Assembly: GCA_010094025.1 (NCBI GenBank)
Contig: ML991783.1
Coordinates: 1 to 64,000 of the forward strand
Length of the DNA: 64,000 nucleotides
Direction: 5' to 3'
DNA from: Viridothelium virens
Lineage: Eukaryota; Ascomycota; Dothideomycetes; Trypetheliales; Trypetheliaceae
A model generated the notes under the pieces. That model was not told the origin of the DNA. It searched no databases and was given only the letters and a program-made list of their open reading frames with translations. The position numbers were made by a program, and so were the translations under genes. Positions 20,653-44,734 of this stretch are shown piece by piece (the first letter of the stretch is position 1; each line of letters begins with the position of its first letter).

Positions 20653-21868
20653 ATGACTACCGAGACCATACCTCCAATGGGTAAGACTCATCCTGAGCTG
20701 GAAAAGGTTGGTATATCAGCTGCAACTTCGTTACCGACTACCAGCTTAACCTCTCATTCAGATACTTTCGCAGCAACCTCCGCCCCCAATTGCCAGCTTC
20801 GACGATGTTCCACGCATGCGCGCCATGCTCTCTGAACGAAAACGTAAGCTTACCGCTACCATGGGTGGTAGTGGACCTCCAACCGGCATCACGGAGAAGG
20901 ATATACAGGTTCCCTCGCGCGAATCAGGCCGTACTATCACCTGTCGAGTCCACTCCCCTTCGCCCGAGACGGCACCCAGAGAAGGAAGCCCGCTATTTGT
21001 GATTTTTCACGGAGGAGGGTTCTGCTTGGGTGGATTGGAAAACGAGGAGTTGCTTTGTCGAGCTTTTGCAAAGGAATTGGGTGTTGTGATGCTGAATGTC
21101 GATTACCGGCTTGCACCCGAGAATCCATTTCCTGCTGCACCAGAAGATGCTTGGGATATTGTGAAATGGGTGAGTGCTTCCGACATATACGGTGACAGCG
21201 ATATGGGAAAGACTGTTGCTGAAGCAATCAATAGGCTGCTACGCACTCGTCTGAACTTCACGCCAATTTGAATCGAGGATTTATCGTGGGTGGCATCTCT
21301 GCAGGCGCCAACCTCGCCACAACGATGGGACATCAGGCAAGGGATGAGAAGCTCTCACCTCCAATCACTGGCCTTTATTTGTCAATTCCCACAATCTCTA
21401 CGCCTGAGTCGATTCCGGAGAAGCACAGGAATATTCACATCAGTAAGATTCAGAACGCGAATCCGCCAGGTTTAGGGGAGGAAGCCATACGGAAATTCGA
21501 GGGTGAGTCTCATAACAAAGGGCCAGCTCTGGTGTCTCCGCGAAATTGTACTGACGAAACTTTACGAAGAAAACTATGCGCCTGACAGATCATCTCATCT
21601 TTTTGCTCCTTTAGGCTGGCCCTCCGGACATACCAATCTTCCACCAACCTACTTCCAGATCTGTGAGCTTGATCCACTTCGCGATGATGCAATAGTCTTC
21701 GAGAAAATGCTGAGAGAAGATTATGGGATCCCAACCAAATATGACTTTTACCCGGGCTTACCTCACGGATTCTGGAGCTTTCATCCAGAAGCGGAGTTCA
21801 GCCAGAGGGTGCCCAAGGATAGTGTGGTAGGATTGAGATGGCTTTTGGAGAAAGGCGTCTCGAGTTGA
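20653..21868 (+). CDS. Alpha/beta hydrolase, HSL-type esterase/lipase
   Basis: Alpha/beta-hydrolase-3 (hormone-sensitive-lipase-like) carboxylesterase. Four exons, 20653-20706, 20762-21169, 21235-21502 and 21570-21868, give 342 aa. The oxyanion-hole motif HGGGFCLGG is followed by [17 protein letters not shown]. The nucleophile elbow is GGISAGAN, with Ile where most family members have Asp (GDSAG). The acid and base are most likely the Asp in [10 protein letters not shown] and the His in LPHGFW. No signal peptide is present, so it is probably intracellular. The natural substrate is unknown; fungal relatives act on short acyl esters or on secondary-metabolite esters. It converges on dac1 with a 170-bp gap. 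Confidence 0.9.
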
Positions 21869-22038: not shown

Positions 22039-23467
22039 TCAAATCTGTCTCTTGTATACCATCGAGCCAAATTTCCACACTTGATCTACTAACAACGCTT
22101 TTCTACCAGAACCCTCTTGTGCCTCAGACAGGACAACCAGATCAGCGTCCGCATTATGCTCGAGGCAACCCTTTGTCTTTTCAAGCCTGAGCATCTTTGC
22201 TGGAGTCGATGTCACGGGCTTTATGGCTTCGGGAATACTAACTTCTGCTGCGTTGTAGAAATTATTGACACAATCGATCAACGGTATAGTCCTGTACCCC
22301 GGTTCAGTTTTAATTGAGCTTTAGGACCAAGTTCAACTCACACTCCGGCCAATGTTTCTGAATCATTCAATGTCAGCACATTGCCCTTCTTTATAAAGTG
22401 ATCGCCATTGGTCCAATCATACGTTCCATCCGGCAAGCCAGCGGGATGCATCGCATCCGTTACGAGGATAAATCCATCTGGATGCGCATTCCAAGCAATG
22501 ACGACAGAAGTAAGATGAAGATGTACGCCATCCGCGATGATGCCAAAGTATGGTCTCTGGAGCTTATCTCCTTGACCAAGTACGCCAAAGATTCCAGGAT
22601 TCCGATGATGCAGAGGCCGCATAGCATTGAAAAGATGGGTCACCATTGTAGATCCGGCATCCATGGCAGCCTTCATCTGCTCGTATGTTGCTTCTGAGTG
22701 GCCTACTGAGAAAATGATCCCCCGGGAGACGATGTCAGGGATGGCGGCTGCAACCCCAGGAAGTTCAGGGCCAGCAGTGATCATCTTTATGATGGGATTG
22801 AAGACATCGTTCGAATCATGCTTCGGCCGTAAGTTATCTGGCCCATAACACTCCAGTATGTCTTGAAATCCATCGGGTGCTTCTTGTAGTACGTCAATAC
22901 GGTGCATCCCATTTTTGGTTGGGCTAATGAAAGGTCCTTCACAATGAGCGCCAAGTGATTCAGCACCATCATTCGGGTTGCGGCGAGCCCCCGAAGGACC
23001 ACAATACGGTAAAACCTAGACTGTTAGCTTCTTAAATGACCATCACCTTCCTGCAATGGACATTATATAGCTTTTACCTTATGATACACTTCTTGATGCG
23101 CGCTCGGAAAGGTCGGTAGGTATGAAGTTACGCCACTCTCAATTAGGCTTCTATTGACTCGGCGAAAGCCTTTTACGTATTCTGTAATGTCTCCTGGCAC
23201 GACCGAAAATGAGAATCCGGCAAAGCCATTTAACTGCACATCGATAAAGCCAGGAGCGAGGATTCGACCACCGAGATCAATGATTTCGTCTGGTATTACC
23301 TGATGCTGATAGAAGGCGATCTGACTTTGGATTATCTTGCCAGTTTTCGAGCTAATCCAGAGATCTTCATTCACGAGTTCGTTTCCTTTGATCAAGCGGC
23401 AATTTACGAATTTGACGATATGACTCTTAGGTCCACCCGGAGAGCCAGGTGATGTAGAGATTGGCAT
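22039..23467 (-). CDS. dac1: N-acetylglucosamine-6-phosphate deacetylase
   Basis: Converts GlcNAc-6-phosphate to glucosamine-6-phosphate and acetate, the committed step of GlcNAc catabolism. Three exons, 23078-23467, 22342-23015 and 22039-22291, give 438 aa. NagA-family landmarks are all present: APGFIDVQLNGFAG, GAHCEGPFISPTKNG (metal-binding Glu), VGHSEA and THLFNAM (metal-binding His residues), and the catalytic Asp in LVTDAM. The 3' part, STPAKMLRLEKTKGCLEHNADADLVVL, is the usual amidohydrolase ending. It lies divergent to the GH3 N-acetylglucosaminidase gene across a 1.2-kb promoter and near the Ndt80-like gene, matching the known fungal GlcNAc cluster. The symbol follows Candida/Trichoderma usage for the deacetylase. 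Confidence 0.95.
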
Positions 23468-24679
23468 CGTAGGCCACAGGGATACAGGCCTCAGTATTCT
23501 GTATCAGCTCTGCGTTACCACAATCATGATCAGTAAAAGCTCGAAATGATATTCTCCTTTGGTGGAGTGGGTCTTCAGGTCGTCAAATATTTAAGGCACT
23601 CGGTCACGCGGAACGTAATTGAAGCCTCCAAAGCGGTTTTCATTGGGCTGCATTATCGATGAGATATCAGTGTCTACGCCAGCCAAGGGTCATGAGATAA
23701 CTCCACAGGATTGCAACCAAAGAGAGTGGTATCGGTCAGCACGAGGGCGATGAAACGTTGGCAGCATTGGACGGTGACGTTACGTTGAAACCAGCCGTGC
23801 CTACCTGCTCTCCGTACACCCCCACTCTGATTCACCCACATGGAAAGTGACATTCGCGCCGACCATGGATCTAGTAAATGTAGTTCTATAAGCACAAACA
23901 AGATAGAAAAGCCGGCTAGATCTCATTCCAATTTGCTTCTCGAGCTTCCGCAAGTTTGATAGTTGGCAGTGGCACTGTTTGAAGCGTGAGCAAGTTCTGG
24001 AAAAAGCGACTTGAATTGCCAACTGCAAGACACGAGGCTTTGCGACTGGGGAACACTTCACTGGAACCAATTCTGGCTATTGATCTGTGAGTTTCTAAAT
24101 TCATTGATAACTTGAGAATCAGAGAAACTTATAGCAAATAGCACATGAGCAATCAAGAATGGCAACATTTGTCACAGAAATATACTAAGACTGTCTAAAT
24201 ATAGCACTTCGGTACATGGGTATTGAAGTCAGACCCAATAATGTCGCTCCTGACATGGCAAAAACGCGATCGCTAAAGATTGATGAGCGACAGGTAGAGA
24301 TAGTCAGCCAGTAACTATTCCGTATGAAGGTGATGAGATTTGCTTGCAGGGTTCGTCGGTCCAGCCTTTCAGTGGCGTGGGTGGCGTGTCCATGGGTATT
24401 TCCATGGACCAGTAGGCCGAGGGACTCGATGACTAAACCAACTCGGGCTTTCCATAGGTCTAAGAAATCGCTTGTATCTTTGCGCAACATTATCTTGAAG
24501 ACTTCGACCCTTATCTCAAACCCCATGTCGCCGGATGTCGCCAACAATCAGATCCTATAGACAGTCCTAATGGCTAATCGATGGGTTGCCTTTCGGTAGC
24601 TATCGCCTCTGAATATCTAAGTACCGAGCCTTCGACCTGAGGTAATCTGTTCCGGCTCAGGCCCATCACCAGCGTCACC
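23468..24679. promoter_or_regulatory. dac1/nag3 divergent intergenic region
   Basis: 1.2 kb between the divergent deacetylase and GH3 genes. No protein-coding gene is supported. By position this should hold the shared or back-to-back promoters; I cannot assign a RON1 site because I do not know a secure consensus. Confidence 0.45.
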
Positions 24680-27656
24680 ATGGTTGTCAAACAAGAAGCC
24701 AAGTTGGACCCAGTATGGGATGATCCTGATAGGTATGACTCTGCATAATAGTCCTTGACAGGAAGGGCTTCGTGTAACTCAGTGACTGAACTCTTGCAGA
24801 ACCTTAGGTCAACTATTTATGATGGGATTTGATGGAACGACAGTTACTCCGCAGATACGTCAACTGATTGAGAAGCATCACCTTGGCTCTATTCTGCTAA
24901 CAGCGAAAAATCTGAAATGTATGTGACTTTGCCTAACCTTCTTGACCCAAGTCTAAATTCAGAGTAGCCGCCGAACAGACAACTCAGTTGGTCTATGAGC
25001 TTCAGAAATGTGCTCATGACGCTGGACATCCCGTTCCACTACTGGTTGCCGTGGATCAAGAGAATGGCGGTGTCAACAGTCTCTTTGACGAGATATACAT
25101 TCGGCAATATCCCAGCGCGATGGGCGTAGCTGCTACTGGTTCGACTGACCTTGCTTATGAAGTCGCAAAGGCTACTGCACAGGAAGTCTCAGCATGCGGT
25201 GTCAATTGGATTATGGGACCTTGTCTGGATGTGTTAACTAATGCTCGAAATCAACCATTAGGCGTCAGGACAAGTGGGGATGATCCTCAAGAAGTCTCAG
25301 CATATGGTGTAGCGTTCATGAAAGGTTACAAAGAGGCTGGCCTGGTCACGCTTGGAAAGCATTTCCCGTCTTACGGAAATCTTGAGTTTTTAGGCTCTGC
25401 ATTAGATGTGCCCATCATAACGGAATCCTTGGAACAACTCAGCTTGAGCGCACTCGTACCTTTCCGGAATGCTATCCGACAAGGCCTTGATTCCATGATG
25501 GTTGGTGGATGTGCCATGTCATCTGCAGGTCTGAATGTCATGCATGCCTGTCTATCCGAACAGGTTATTGAAGGGCTTCTGAGATCGGATCTCAACTTCG
25601 ACGGCGTGGTGGTCTCCGAATGCCTCGAAATGGAGGCTTTGAGCCACAATATCGGCGTTGGTGGGGGTACAGTCATGGCAGTAAATGCTGGCTGCGATCT
25701 TGTTCTCCTCTGCCGCTCTTTCCCTGTCCAGCAAGAAGCCCTGACGGGGCTCAAACTTGGGATCGATAATTCTATGATATCCCTGGATCGAGCCAAAATT
25801 TCGCTACGCAGGATTCTCAAGTTGAAATCAAAGTGCACCACATGGGAAAAGGCATTGAATCCACCAGGGATAGATTGGTTGTCTACTCTGCAACCCTCAC
25901 ACACAGGCCTTTCTACGAAAGCCTACAACAAATCTATAACGGTCGTTCGAGACAAAGGTCGGTTTTTACCACTTACTAACATAATAGATCCTGAGGAAGA
26001 GTTATTACTGTTAACACCACTTGTCAAACCATTGGCAGCATCAGCCGCATCAAAAGCCCTGTCAGAAACTGCCAATACTGGCTCACCGGAACCTGCGGTC
26101 TGGGAGAGAAGCGCTTCTGTAATGAGCGGAGAACGAGTGTTCCGGGAATTAGGTCGATCGCTCGCAAGGCAAAGAAGTGGACGAGTATTGCACACATCCT
26201 ACACTGCAAACGGTGTTCGGCCGGTACACGAAAATCTTATCAATCGAGCAAGCGCAATCATTGTACTTACGGCAGATGCGAATCGCAATTTATACCAGCA
26301 AGGCTTTACAAAGCATGTCTCCATGATCTGCAGTATGCAATATTCAGCCGGTGGTGAAAGGCGTGAAAAGCCGCTCATTGTGGTTTCCGTCAGCTCACCA
26401 TACGACTTTGCAATGGACGCAGGGATAGGAACCTATATTTGCACATACGACTTTACCGAGACAGCTTTGAACTCACTCGTCAACGTATTGTACGGTGAAC
26501 ACTCCCCAACTGGGACTTTGCCCGGCACAATCAGTCAGAGCCAGAAGCTACACCAATCAAGGCAGCATTGGCTTGTAGAGAACTTCAACGAGGAAAGAGA
26601 CGCGAATGCTCTGGACGCACTCCTCAGAACTGTCGTCGAGAGCACGCCGCTGAACCAGCACTCAGAACTATCGAGTGCGAGCTCCAACTCATTTCTACTA
26701 CACAATCAAGAGATTATTGAGGCCCACTTTGTAGTGCGCAATAGTAGCACACATGTCCTCTACGGATTTTGCTCAACCTACTTTTTCAAAACAACAGGCA
26801 CAGGCGTGATAGGCGGTCTGATTGTAGATCCATCGAGGAGGAAATTGTCCATCGGCCATTCTCTTCACAATCGGGCTATCCGAACGTTGCTACAACGAGA
26901 AGGCATCAAACGATTTCAACTAGGTTCCAGACTCCCCAGCATGTTCCTTGGTATACCGACTGGCCACGGCTCAGAACGCAAACGGCTTCGAGCATGGTTT
27001 GCTAACATGGGGTGGAACACGGCATTGTCTCGACCGGTATGCAGCATGGTGGCACGCAATCTGGCATCCTGGGCACCACCAGATGGTATGGCGAAGAGCC
27101 TCCAAAGTGCCGGTGCGCAGTTTGATCTTGTCTATGGGTGGGAGTACGCCGGCCCGATCCTTGATCACATCAAGACGAACAATCGACAAGGACTCGCAGA
27201 GGTGTACAATATGGCTCTCGCCGACTCTTCGGCTTGCGGCATCATTCGAGCAAAACGACCTGAAGACGATACACTTGTCGGCACTGTCGTGCTATATAAT
27301 ATGCAATCGAATCTTGCAGAATTTGTGCCTGGCATCAAAGATATTGGCGAAACAACAGGGGGAATTTCGTCGCCGGTCATCTCACCCTCGGTAGGAGAGT
27401 ATTCTACCCTTTTACAGGGCTTGATACTTCTGGGAATCCGATGTCTCAAGCAGCAAGGATGCAATGCTTGCATTTTGGACTACGTATGTGCACGCCCTGT
27501 CGGCGAGGAAAAATTGACCAAATTCACTGACTTGATTTCCAGATGGATGGCGATGGTAATTTCGATGGGCTCTCGGCTATGGGCTTCGGAGTTCTTCACA
27601 ACTTCGAAGAAGTCTCTTGTGATGCGGCGACATGGACGATGGTCCCACCATCGTAA
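24680..27656 (+). CDS. nag3: GH3 beta-N-acetylglucosaminidase fused to GNAT-like domains
   Basis: Four exons, 24680-24732, 24800-24918, about 24965-27483 and 27543-27656, give about 934 aa; the acceptor of intron 2 could shift by a few bases. The N-terminal 320 residues are a GH3 barrel: LGQLFMMGFDG, VAVDQENGGV (about 87), NWIMGPCLDV, KHFPSYG (about 188) and VVVSECLEMEAL (about 273). A second GH3-type domain follows to about residue 590. From about 640 to the end are acetyltransferase-like lobes, with the acetyl-CoA motif VIGGLIVDPSRRKLSIGHSL and a second lobe ending NFDGLSAMGFGVLHNFEEV. GH3-GNAT fusions are known in fungal GlcNAc clusters (Trichoderma NAG3 type). No signal peptide, so probably intracellular. 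Unusual residues at the catalytic positions are described in the findings. Confidence 0.9.
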
Positions 27657-29083
27657 AAGATAGTTAAAGGCGGCACCTGCAGAGATCCAGGATGCTATGC
27701 GGCTTATGTGGCGTCTTAGTCGTGATTTGACCTTACATGTACCAATCAGGTTGGATGCCCCGAGATTTGATCAGTCATTTGTTGGAGCTTGGACAACGTT
27801 AGGGGATTTCGGAGGGCGGGTGGCAAGCCATCAGATGAGGCTCGTCACCTAGTTTCGAACAAGCGTTTGTAGTTTCAGGCTCTTTCAGGCTCAGGAGTGG
27901 TGGGCGAGGCGATGGATTGGCGGAGCGGAGAGCGACTGCAGCGAAGCCTGAAGAGGCAGGTGCCGGGAGGGCCGAACGGGCGCTTGGGAGGTGCGGGTGA
28001 TGTGGTAGGAACACCCAGCTAAGGCCTAAGGAATGTGGATGTGGATGTGGAAGGGATGTGGGCGCGAAGGAGCAGGTGGGGCCGTTGATTAGCCTGACCG
28101 GGTGCGGGCCTCGCCAAATGCTGCCGAGGGCGCGAGGGTGCGAGGGTGCGCAGGCTCAGAGGCACGAGAGGCACGAGAGGCAGGAGGCCCAGGAGGCCCA
28201 GGAGGGCCCGGAGGGGAGCGTTGGTGGCATTTGCTGGTCCACATACAGCCACTACCTGTAATGTAGCTCTTAGCCTGCGTCGCCTAAGCTCGCCGATCAG
28301 CGAACATCGAAGCTCTAGAAAAGCTGTGGAAGCAGCTTCTCGCCCGCGCTGCAGTGTCGCTTGTGACTCCACGTGCCATCGAGCAAATCCTCCTTGAGGT
28401 CCTTTCCCCACCACTTTCTCGGAGGCTTGCTATTCTCCACCCAAAATAACATCTCGTTTCAGACCCTTCCGTCCTCCTTGTCCCGCCGTAATTATTATCG
28501 TTCTTTTTCGTTCACTCTGCTGGGCCCTTCCGCCCGTTTCCTGTGTGCCGTTTCCCTCACTCGGGTACGTGCGCACCTGATATGTTTTGGATCTTCTGCG
28601 TTGTCCGGACTCGCATTTAGGGCTGGCCAGATAACACTTGGGCGCTTCTGCAGTTGGCCGAAATCGTCATCGCATCCTGCAGTCGGTCGCACAGCGACGG
28701 CCGTGAGCAGTCGGTGGCCTGTCCTTTGCTGGTAGGAGAATCCGGCTCAGCGACCCCCGTACCACCACCACCCTCCGCTGCTGACCTGCTCTCCCGCGTC
28801 CCTGCACACTGTCAAAGCGCAACTGGTCGTGTTCACTGGATCCTGCTAGTCTTTGGGCTGTCGCATTGCTGCCGAACCGTGATAACGATTCTACGACTAT
28901 CCAAATTCTCTCAGCAGCGCCTTCCAGAGCCGTCCCAGAAGCTCCACCTCGACTACTATCAACGGTCACCAGTCGCGCCCTGGCTTGTCTGAAAAAGATA
29001 CTGGTCGACTCATATTGAATGCGCATGCTGCGCCTGCATACTTTCCTGTTCTTACTGTTCCGTGTCGGCAGCTTCGAGCCATC
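27657..29083. promoter_or_regulatory. Long 5' region of the Ndt80-like gene
   Basis: 1.4 kb without a supportable gene. The left part (27800-28350) is GC-rich and low in complexity, including near-tandem GAGGCACGA and AGGAGGCCC units at about 28158-28215. The right part (28430-28700) is pyrimidine-rich, as in many fungal core promoters. It is probably the promoter and a long leader of ron1. Confidence 0.45.
28158..28215. repeat. Short GC-rich tandem units
   Basis: Imperfect head-to-tail copies of GAGGCACGA followed by AGGAGGCCC-type units lie in the upstream region of ron1. Open frames in several registers across it are composition artefacts (Arg/Pro/Gly runs). Confidence 0.6.
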
Positions 29084-30837
29084 ATGGAGGGCTTTGATAC
29101 GATTACCATGTCATATTTGACCAATAATCCAATGTCACTCTCCGGCGCAACGACGGCAGATCAGCTTTCAGCTTCGCTACTACCTCATGATATGGCTGAT
29201 CATCTATCCAATTTCGACGCCGAGACTTTCCCAGGGTACGTTGATAGGTCTCCTCTAACCTCCCTCGCTCTCCTTGCGATACATACTATGCGAGCCATTC
29301 CATCGGCCCCACTTCGAAGCAACTCTGACTTTTATTTAGAAGCGACGACAATTTCGGGCCGCCTCCAATACCACCTCATACGCCAGGTCTCAAACGTTTC
29401 TCCAGTACTTACGAGGATCCATTCTCCGATGTCCTCAGCACATACGACCAACCGTTACAGCCTGAGCAGAACGGAACGGAGAGCGAGTCGATCGACCGCG
29501 ACAACAAGCTTCTCAGCTTTTCCGTTCCAACACTCCATTATAGGCTCCTCGACTATGCTCTGCGCCCAACGTCCATCACACTCTCTGCCCAACTCCATGG
29601 CATGTTCTTTTTGGCCGAATCGCCATGGGCAGCCAGTGGTGAAACGGCGGCACCGCCAACTGAGTTGACATGTTATCGTCGCAATCTTTTTCAGATCACA
29701 GGTACAATCACACTACCACGCATGCTACGTTTCATCATGACCGAGCAAGGCGAGCAGATCCCAATCATTGCGCAGGAACTATCTATCTCGGCCACTGAGT
29801 CGGTTGAGGGTAACTCGGTCAAAATCATATCAGTACCATGGAAAACACCAGCGACAAACCAACCTGTTGTCGAAGATAAGGCGGAAAAGGAGCCATCTGC
29901 AATTCTGCTTGACTTGATTAATGGACAAGAAATGGATTCTGAGTTTGTGAGCTTTCCAATTGCCTGGAAACGGCTGCAATTTAGGATCGCCACGGCGAAC
30001 AACGGCAGGAGAAAGGAGCTGCAGCAACATTTTGTCGTCCGTCTGAAAGTTGTTGCTACTCTCGCAACCGGCATCAAAGTGCTAATTGCAGAGAGCCAGT
30101 CTGGTGCAATTATCGTTCGAGGCAGAAGCCCGAGAAACTTTCAATCTCGAAAAGATTTCCCGTTGAGCGCTGGGGGCTCTACTTCAAGGAAGAACATGCA
30201 CTTACCTACGGCGCCCACTCGGACTCCTACCAATGATTCGCTTCCTCAACTCACTCCTGACCGCATCAAAAACAATGGACCAACATCTAATCCCTTCCCT
30301 AATGGTAACACGGACTTGCAAATTTCTCCCGACTTTTTCGAATGGAAGATTCCCACAGGACAGACTGGGGCGATGACCGCGATCCCTCAAGATCCCACAT
30401 CCTATGCCCTCGCCACCCCTAACGCCTACGCTCAGTCCAGCCCAGATTTATCCCGTCACTCCCACCACGGATCTCGTTCTGTGACTGCACCTATCAATCT
30501 ATCGCTCACGGACGATGAACCCAAACCCAAATCATCCGCCTCCCCTTCAAATAGCAACAACGATGGCCAGCCGCGCAAGCTTCCAAAACTCAATAGCGTA
30601 CCTCCGCCACCCCGAGCATCTAGCTTTTCCCTCAACATGATCAGCAGTCCAGATGAGAGTGCGGATCTTCTCTATGAATACTTTCCTCTTGGTTTGGATG
30701 ATTGGATGCCCCCTGTAGATGCAGTGTACAGACCACATGTGGTACATCAACTCAATCTACCCCCTGATCCAAAGGCACAGGCAGTCAAGAACCGAAGTAA
30801 GAGGTATTTCTCAGAGGATCAAGGGCCTGATAGATGA
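29084..30837 (+). CDS. ron1: Ndt80-like transcription factor, RON1-type
   Basis: Sequence-specific regulator with an Ndt80/PhoG DNA-binding domain. Two exons, 29084-29235 and 29340-30837, give 549 aa. The domain spans about residues 105-325 and includes ITLSAQLHGMFFLAE, ELTCYRRNLFQITGTITLPR, PIAWKRLQFRIATANNGRRKE, HFVVRLKV and RGRSPRNFQSRKDF, the Arg-rich contacts typical of Ndt80, VIB-1 and XprG. A Ser/Pro/Asn-rich linker follows, then a conserved C-terminal block near 495-545 (EYFPLGLDDWMPPVDAVYRPH). Its position beside nag3 and dac1 identifies it as the cluster regulator RON1 rather than VIB-1 or NDT80 itself; that is context-based. The first in-frame ATG was chosen as start. Confidence 0.85.
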
Positions 30838-43201: not shown

Positions 43202-44734
43202 GATATCCAGCGATGACCGGGACTACTTGTACAGATTGGCGTTCAGCGGGACGCATTTGCTTGGAGTTTGGGAAGAAAATGTTTCACCGATTGTTGACCT
43301 CTCTTGAAACTCTCGAATGGCAGCATCCCGAAACTGTGAAATTTTATCGTAGCATCGCAGGGTTCCCCATAGCCGCCACCTCCGCCAAAACTCCCCCATC
43401 AGCGCCAAAGTTCACGCACCTCACCAATTTTACCTATAAACTTACAGTCTCAATGGTTTTCTCGTTTTTCCACCCCCTTTACTGTCTGATTTAGAAATTA
43501 TGAAGCAATCCAACTCACTATTGTCTTTCTCTATTATCCACACCTAGTTTTTCTAAATTTTTAGAGAGTCGTGGGTGCTGCTCTGCGTAGCTGTACATAC
43601 GGAAAAACCTCAGTGGACTTGGAGATCCTCAATATAACTCTAATCTAATCTAATTTCTACTTTAATCTTTATGTGGGTGTCGCCTCTCTGCGCAGGTCTG
43701 GCTTGTCTATGAAGGTCCTGCCTCTCTACGCAGGTTTCACCTCTCTGCGCAGACCTCTCACCTTTGTACGGGTCTCGCACCTCTGTCTAAGCCTCACGCC
43801 TCTATGTAGGTCAATCTTGCCTCTGTGTAAGCCTCACCTCTCTGTAGGCCTTTTATCTCTACGCAGGCCTCTTATCTCTACATAGGTCTCTCACCTCTAC
43901 CTGGGTCTCACACCTTTATGTGGGTCAGTCTAACACCTCTATGTAGGTAGATCTTATACCTCTATATAGGTACGTCTCGCACCTCTGTGTAAATCTTACT
44001 ATTTTAAGGTAAGAGACCCATGCAGAGATGTGAGACTAACACAGAGGTGCAAGACTTACGCAGAGGTGCGAGACCTGCGCAGAGGTGCGAGGCCTATGTA
44101 GAGAGGGGAGACCTGCGCAGAGATAAGAGACCTACGTAAAGAAGCGAGGCCTGTCCAGAGAGGGGAGACCTGCGCAGGGATGAGAGGCCGACCCAGAGAG
44201 GTGAGACCTGTACAGAGATTGAAGTAGAGATCTCGGAGAGTAAGCTTAAAATCTTCAGTCAGTCTCAAATATTCCTAATAAGGCAATGGAAGTGGTAAAA
44301 ATATGTGAAGTAGTGAAATTGTAACTTCTCTAGTGGAGTTTACAATATCTCCTCGAAGAGTCGCGATAGAAGGATGGGTAAAGTTGGAAGCTGTACAGTA
44401 ATTAGGATATGATTATTGAGGGTTACCTGGATGACTTACTTATAATCTCAACCGCGACGGTCTCTGCATAAGGCATGTTCTTTTTGGTTGATGAAAACCT
44501 TCTAGGTATACACCCGGACTACAATTCCAGCAGTTGTGATGGGGTCTCGGCTTGTCGTTGAATCGCTCATATTGTGTTCACGAGCTGTCCCGCACTCGAC
44601 CACGACAGTTTGCGTGCCATATCCCCATCCAAGCAACACCAAGTAACCAGGTACAGTTCTGGATTTTGTGCGTAAACTTCCGCTTGTCATTGAAATGCCG
44701 TGTTTCATTCATTTATGAGCCATTATCTATCCTA
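43202..44734. other. Intergenic region holding the foldback-like repeat
   Basis: Between the transaldolase-like gene and did2. It contains the inverted minisatellite at 43660-44235. Frames on both strands of the arms encode the same Leu/Arg/Ser-rich peptide pattern and are shadows of the repeat. Confidence 0.6.
43660..44235. repeat. Foldback-like inverted array of an approx. 20-bp minisatellite
   Basis: The left arm (about 43660-43990) is a head-to-tail array of variable units such as CACCTCTGTGTAGGTCTCG. The right arm (about 44010-44235) is the same unit in the opposite direction, e.g. CGCAGAGGTGCGAGACCTG. A short spacer (TACTATTTTAAGGTAAG region) separates them. The outer ends also correspond: TCTACTTTAATCT on the left and, in reverse complement, CTACTTCAATCTC on the right. 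Long terminal inverted repeats made of tandem subrepeats are the hallmark of foldback elements. No transposase gene is inside, so this would be non-autonomous. An ordinary minisatellite that inverted is the alternative. Confidence 0.65.

Follow-up and report, generated by a model that had tools for sequence, protein, structure and literature searches.

A complete but apparently split N-acetylglucosamine gene cluster in Viridothelium virens, with a GH3-GNAT gene likely to encode a sensor

INTRODUCTION

When three genes of a catabolic pathway stand side by side and their usual partners are out of sight, has the cluster been reduced to what remains, or has it been broken, with the other genes persisting elsewhere? 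The question is raised by a locus of the ascomycete Viridothelium virens, where genes for N-acetylglucosamine (GlcNAc) catabolism lie in the first 64,000 bases (bases 1-64000, here the window) of contig ML991783.1 (485,159 bp, here C13), part of a genome assembly that totals 30.7 Mb across 175 contigs (GCA_010094025.1). A first-pass annotation of this window had recognized dac1, nag3, and ron1 as neighbors and left open whether the cluster is split or reduced to these three genes. We find that the cluster is very probably complete but split, with its regulators and deacetylase in the window half, and that the gene first called nag3, referred to below as ngs1, most likely encodes a GlcNAc sensor and not an enzyme.

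RESULTS

A profile search of the same genome with PF01182, PF03727, and PF05978 found the remaining pathway genes together on C13, where an ngt1-like transporter gene, dam1, and an hxk3-like hexokinase gene occupy 114.0 to 123.5 kb of the contig. The first-pass annotation was right that a transporter, a deaminase, and a sugar kinase are not in the window, yet all three are on the same contig; of the two outcomes it offered, the cluster is therefore split and not reduced. All six gene kinds of the pathway (deacetylase, deaminase, hexokinase, transporter, GH3-GNAT protein, and Ndt80-like regulator) are on C13, the transporter and kinase being assigned by family and position. Their order is alpha/beta-hydrolase (+), dac1 (-), ngs1 (+), ron1 (+), an interval of 83,150 bp, ngt1-like (-), dam1 (+), a CRAL-TRIO gene (+), and hxk3-like (+), so that two groups of three pathway genes, the second enclosing the CRAL-TRIO gene, span 101,419 bp from dac1 to hxk3.

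Ordinary genes fill the space between the halves. From this interval, 30 open reading frames (ORFs) of >=200 amino acids with little overlap among them were retained, and 16 were scanned. At E <= 0.001, 15 of the 16 had a Pfam match (an EF-hand match among these falls below its curated cut-off), and one matched nothing. They include a tubulin-tyrosine ligase, a succinyl-CoA ligase, TFIIB, a MEC1-like HEAT protein, Mediator 17, a kelch protein, and a kinase. If the two loci had been placed at random in a 30.7-Mb genome, the chance of finding them no more than ~93 kb apart would be ~0.6%, which favors a local rearrangement; a single event could have produced the split, the simplest candidate being an inversion that had one of the halves at its end.

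Within the window, dac1, the GH3-GNAT gene, and the Ndt80-family gene are consecutive, as first described, with apparently intact frames and matches to the expected families. Gene models were predicted by hand from splice consensus with GT..AG introns, and removal of two introns from dac1, three from the GH3-GNAT gene, and one from ron1 left open proteins (Table 1). The outer ends of the feature are exact: 22039 is where the dac1 frame ends, and 30837 is where that of ron1 does. The models also bear out the arrangement noted earlier, with dac1 and ngs1 divergent and ron1 downstream of ngs1 on the same strand.

TABLE 1 Features of the two gene groups and their neighbors on contig C13 (window positions are contig positions)
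Feature	Position	Strand	Exons	Product and support
alpha/beta-hydrolase gene (left flank)	20653..21868	+		Probably an esterase, no known part in the pathway; PF07859, 9.4e-23 and 4.9e-09 on two ORFs; start read by eye
dac1	22039..23467	-	23467-23078, 23015-22342, 22291-22039	GlcNAc-6-phosphate deacetylase, 438 amino acids
dac1-ngs1 intergenic region	23468..24679	.		Putative shared promoter between divergent starts, 1.2 kb; from gene models
ngs1 (= nag3)	24680..27656	+	24680-24732, 24800-24918 (or -24922), 24965 (or 24963)-27483, 27543-27656	GH3 + GNAT domains, 934 or 936 amino acids; PF00933 6.3e-52, PF00583 1.4e-5; intron 2 splice sites uncertain
ron1/xprG	29084..30837	+	29084-29235, 29340-30837	Ndt80-family transcription factor, 549 amino acids; PF05224 (NDT80_PhoG)
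ngt1-like	C13:115620-113988	-		Transporter, 507 amino acids; UNC-93 and MFS_1 above cut-offs
dam1	C13:117125-118212	+		Glucosamine-6-phosphate (GlcN-6-P) deaminase; TIGR00502, PF01182
CRAL-TRIO (Sec14-like) gene	C13:118693-119937	+		Between dam1 and hxk3-like; CRAL-TRIO family
hxk3-like	C13:121856-123457	+	4 exons	Hexokinase, 477 amino acids; PF00349 and PF03727

The protein encoded by ngs1 has its GH3 domain before its GNAT domain, and its length falls in the 930- to 960-amino-acid range of NGS1 sensors. Its closest solved relative in PDB is 4zm6 (4.1e-71), which we take to be the Rhizomucor miehei enzyme, the RmNag of the T. reesei paper. In this alignment the catalytic Asp-x-His of 4zm6 is replaced by Gly201-x-Ala203 and the nucleophile Asp by Glu276, and VDQENG, GVR, and KHFP are retained, motifs that presumably correspond to the sugar contacts of NagZ. 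The acetyl-CoA contacts of GNAT motif A are also kept, Val678 and Gly688 having the same spacing of ten as Val685 and Gly695 in T. reesei. Matched by kind and by spacing from the published positions, the lost GH3 residues agree with the variant residues Gly206, Asp208, and Glu282 of the 932-amino-acid T. reesei protein, which has been renamed from NAG3 to NGS1 and proposed as a GlcNAc sensor (PMC12176254). As the catalytic residues are replaced in the manner reported for NGS1, the protein probably works as a sensor and not as an enzyme, and the name nag3, in its sense of N-acetylglucosaminidase, does not fit its likely function. The genome has no second close copy of ngs1, the one other match, on C8, being 26% identical.

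Identification of dac1 is direct. The protein scores 235.9 bits against the nagA equivalog model TIGR00221, above the curated cut-off of 225.65, and its best PDB match is the GlcNAc-6-P deacetylase 7nut (3.5e-79). The EGPF, GHS, THLFNAM, and VTDA motifs, which we take to carry the NagA active-site residues, are conserved in that alignment. Exon 2 of dac1 has one relative elsewhere in the genome, on C38, 40% identical over 116 amino acids. This relative, a second NagA-type deacetylase-like gene (L022, C38:242472-242864), lies ~57 kb from an UNC-93-type transporter gene (L018, C38:185294-186124) that shares 32% identity with exon 1 of the ngt1-like gene, and the pair could possibly be a second amino-sugar gene set.

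The ron1 product matches PF05224 at 7.7e-40 in the genome search and 8.7e-40 in the scan of window ORFs. The whole genome has at least two PF05224 genes, ron1 and one on C12; the C12 gene matches yeast Ndt80 in PDB at 1.4e-8, whereas the main exon of ron1 has no such match at E <= 10, a contrast of scores. Two Ndt80 genes, of which one is NDT80-like and the other adjoins ngs1, fit the reading of the window gene as ron1/xprG, which is its best name; membership of the NDT80/FSD-1 superbranch is disfavored. The region from ngs1 to ron1 (27657-29083) has a GC content of 57.6%, whereas the three other upstream regions for which it was determined have 47-51%. Of the 17 ATGs in this region, two are out of frame with ron1 and meet no stop codon ahead of it, and the region may serve as a long, regulated leader.

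In the second half, dam1 is the most firmly placed gene, scoring 388 bits against the nagB model TIGR00502 (cut-off, 236.9) and matching the solved GlcN-6-P isomerase 1ne7 at 7.7e-114. PF01182 has two places in the genome, C31 and C13:117322-117885, and the stronger match, on C31, was set aside as a deaminase candidate, being a 6-phosphogluconolactonase by TIGR01198 (197.2 bits; cut-off, 124.45). The best model of dam1 has a 53-bp intron inside the start codon, with AT on one side and G on the other (C13:117125-117126, then 117180 onward). PF05978 has three matches in the genome, one of which, on C13 at 115.0 kb, diverges from dam1; this ngt1-like gene has no close relative elsewhere in the genome, the best other match to its exon 1 being the 32% identical gene on C38. 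PF03727 has five matches at four loci, one of them at 122.6 kb of C13. Aligned with hexokinase 1bg3, the hxk3-like protein conserves five motifs, SFP, KGF, VND, GTGTNA, and ISG-YLGE, together with the N-x-E Glu. HXK3 is the proposed GlcNAc kinase and has been named the orthologue of HxkC of A. nidulans (PMC4950302), and by this analogy the hxk3-like gene would supply the kinase step.

Outside the pathway, the left flank, first annotated as an unrelated esterase, is an alpha/beta-hydrolase gene that probably encodes an esterase. RNA families gave 0 matches at the gathering threshold across the window.

DISCUSSION

Three other explanations of this locus can be set against a complete, split cluster with a sensor and its regulator. 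One holds that only dac1, nag3, and ron1 survive and that GlcNAc-6-P is recycled by another route. In its support, only three pathway genes are visible inside the window, but gene content refutes it: dam1, the hxk3-like gene, and the ngt1-like gene are grouped on the same contig with reading frames open after splicing, and we give the idea almost no credence. Somewhat less remote, though still very improbable, is the view implied by the name nag3, in which the GH3-GNAT protein is catalytically active as an N-acetylglucosaminidase and sets GlcNAc free. In its favor, 4zm6 bears the name N-acetyl-beta-D glucosaminidase and aligns along both the GH3 and the GNAT parts; the Asp-x-His pair and nucleophile Asp are present in 4zm6, however, and are replaced in the window protein. 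The Ngs1 of Candida albicans, a 963-amino-acid protein that binds GlcNAc and no longer has the His of that pair, is reported to have no detectable N-acetylglucosaminidase activity (PMC5063960).

The identity of the regulator can be weighed in the same way. The published Ndt80 tree sets an NDT80 superbranch apart from a second one made up of the sister clades RON1/XprG and VIB-1 (PMC4950302), and this close kinship is what could make the window gene a VIB-1-type regulator whose adjacency to ngs1 is incidental. VIB-1 is reported there as an additional paralogue confined to Sordariomycetes and Leotiomycetes, however, and xprG of A. nidulans is reported to adjoin nag3/ngs1 (PMC4950302). The genome search yielded just two Ndt80 genes, a lower bound, of which the other is NDT80-like, and no separate VIB-1 paralogue was seen among these PF05224 genes. 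We consider a VIB-1-type gene unlikely to much the same degree as an active enzyme, if marginally less so, and retain ron1/xprG.

Several observations nevertheless pull against a split cluster under common control of a sensor and RON1. A glycine in the GNAT loop of 4zm6, two residues before the position of Gly688, is Ser in the ngs1 protein. The identities of the ngt1-like and hxk3-like genes rest on family and position, and the hxk3-like protein has Gly for the Thr that precedes KGF in one half of 1bg3 and Asn for the Asp of DGS; A. nidulans HxkC is itself reported as a non-catalytic hexokinase-like protein (PMC3821154). Repeats that might have mediated an inversion were not found at the block edges in a self-comparison of 144 kb, whose six matches all lie at 43.7-44.2 kb. 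The promoters add to this list. Four upstream regions (dac1-ngs1, ngt1-dam1, hxk3, and ron1) were searched. CRCAAAW, the Ndt80 site of the middle sporulation element (MSE) type, occurs 0 times in the four against ~3.4 expected from the contig rate, CACAAA twice against 3.8, and CRCAAA five times against 7.4. The only 9-mer common to the three catabolic promoters, CAGCCAAGG, is present as a single copy in each of them and has 4 copies in the whole 144 kb. It was rejected as evidence of shared regulation: of 1,888 random window triples, 28% have a 9-mer in common, and in 15% the common 9-mer is equally rare. The motif searches thus lend no support to shared regulation.

The absence of CRCAAAW from these promoters speaks against the classical MSE site and agrees with the motif of Candida Rep1, which is reported to differ from the CACAAA of Ndt80 (PMC9925049). 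In the dac1-ngs1 region taken separately, CRCAAAW is likewise absent and CRCAAA occurs three times against 1.5 expected.

Two further features of the DNA stand apart from these questions. The sole self-match in the 144 kb, at window positions 43666-44219, is a local imperfect repeat, both inverted and direct, ~70-74% identical. The word TACGGAGTA, which is common in Eurotiomycetes, occurs 12 times on both strands of C13:1-144000, where 0.4 (first-order Markov) or 1.1 (base composition) would be expected.

How the two halves could work together is suggested by work on other fungi. In T. reesei, RON1 and NGS1 are both reported as required for induction (PMC12176254, PMC4950302), and in C. albicans, Rep1 is described as recruiting Ngs1 to promoters, whose histones need Ngs1 to become acetylated in response to GlcNAc (PMC5063960, PMC12570498, PMC9925049). 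Modeled on Trichoderma and Candida, we propose that NGT1 would import GlcNAc, which would be bound by NGS1, a GH3 protein without catalytic residues joined to a GNAT domain. In both halves of the cluster, RON1/XprG would keep NGS1 tethered to the promoters, where GlcNAc would bring about local histone acetylation and switch transcription on, and HXK3, DAC1, and DAM1 would convert GlcNAc to fructose-6-phosphate. Co-regulation of the two halves would follow by analogy with the same Trichoderma and Candida work.

A bolder idea, which we regard as improbable, is that the break is not random. The pathway would then form two self-contained modules built on divergent pairs, dac1/ngs1 with ron1 and ngt1/dam1 with hxk3, with the sensor and regulator staying beside the deacetylase and the distant halves still switched together by one RON1-NGS1 pair that uses no classical Ndt80 site. 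If this is true and the arrangement is kept across a lineage, it would represent a stable two-module form of the GlcNAc pathway. Apart from that, the GlcNAc pathway genes are all present in this genome, and a misleading enzyme name, nag3, is replaced by that of a likely sensor. The locus adds a data point for fungal catabolic clusters that break up while their genes persist, and offers a natural test case for whether co-regulation needs physical clustering.

Comparison with known systems places this locus among familiar arrangements. The T. reesei GlcNAc cluster (hxk3, nag3/ngs1, dac1, dam1, and ron1, plus ngt1) has the same six gene kinds, including an Ndt80-family regulator and a GH3-GNAT protein whose catalytic residues are degenerate, but here they form two groups of three genes, separated by 83 kb in which ordinary genes lie. 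In A. nidulans, xprG likewise adjoins the nag3 orthologue, and the cluster is reported to be in two parts, ascribed to a chromosomal inversion (PMC4950302). In A. fumigatus, nagA, a beta-N-acetylglucosaminidase gene, and ronA have consecutive locus numbers, with dacA numbered three before nagA; by these numbers dacA and nagA have two further genes between them, and the authors term the pathway genes non-clustered (PMC12584764). There the deaminase gene nagA is numbered beside the glucosaminidase-ronA pair, whereas here it is dac1 that stands beside ngs1-ron1, with 86 kb separating dam1 from ron1. Histoplasma capsulatum has its NGT1-HXK1-DAC1-NAG1-GIT7 pathway genes dispersed over 75 kb, and its reported NGT2 (PMC3778022) has no close relative here: when exon 1 of the ngt1-like gene is used as the probe, the best match other than the gene itself reaches 32% identity. 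A split or stretched GlcNAc cluster is therefore an ordinary arrangement, already in print for A. nidulans and Histoplasma, and V. virens provides one more instance of it.

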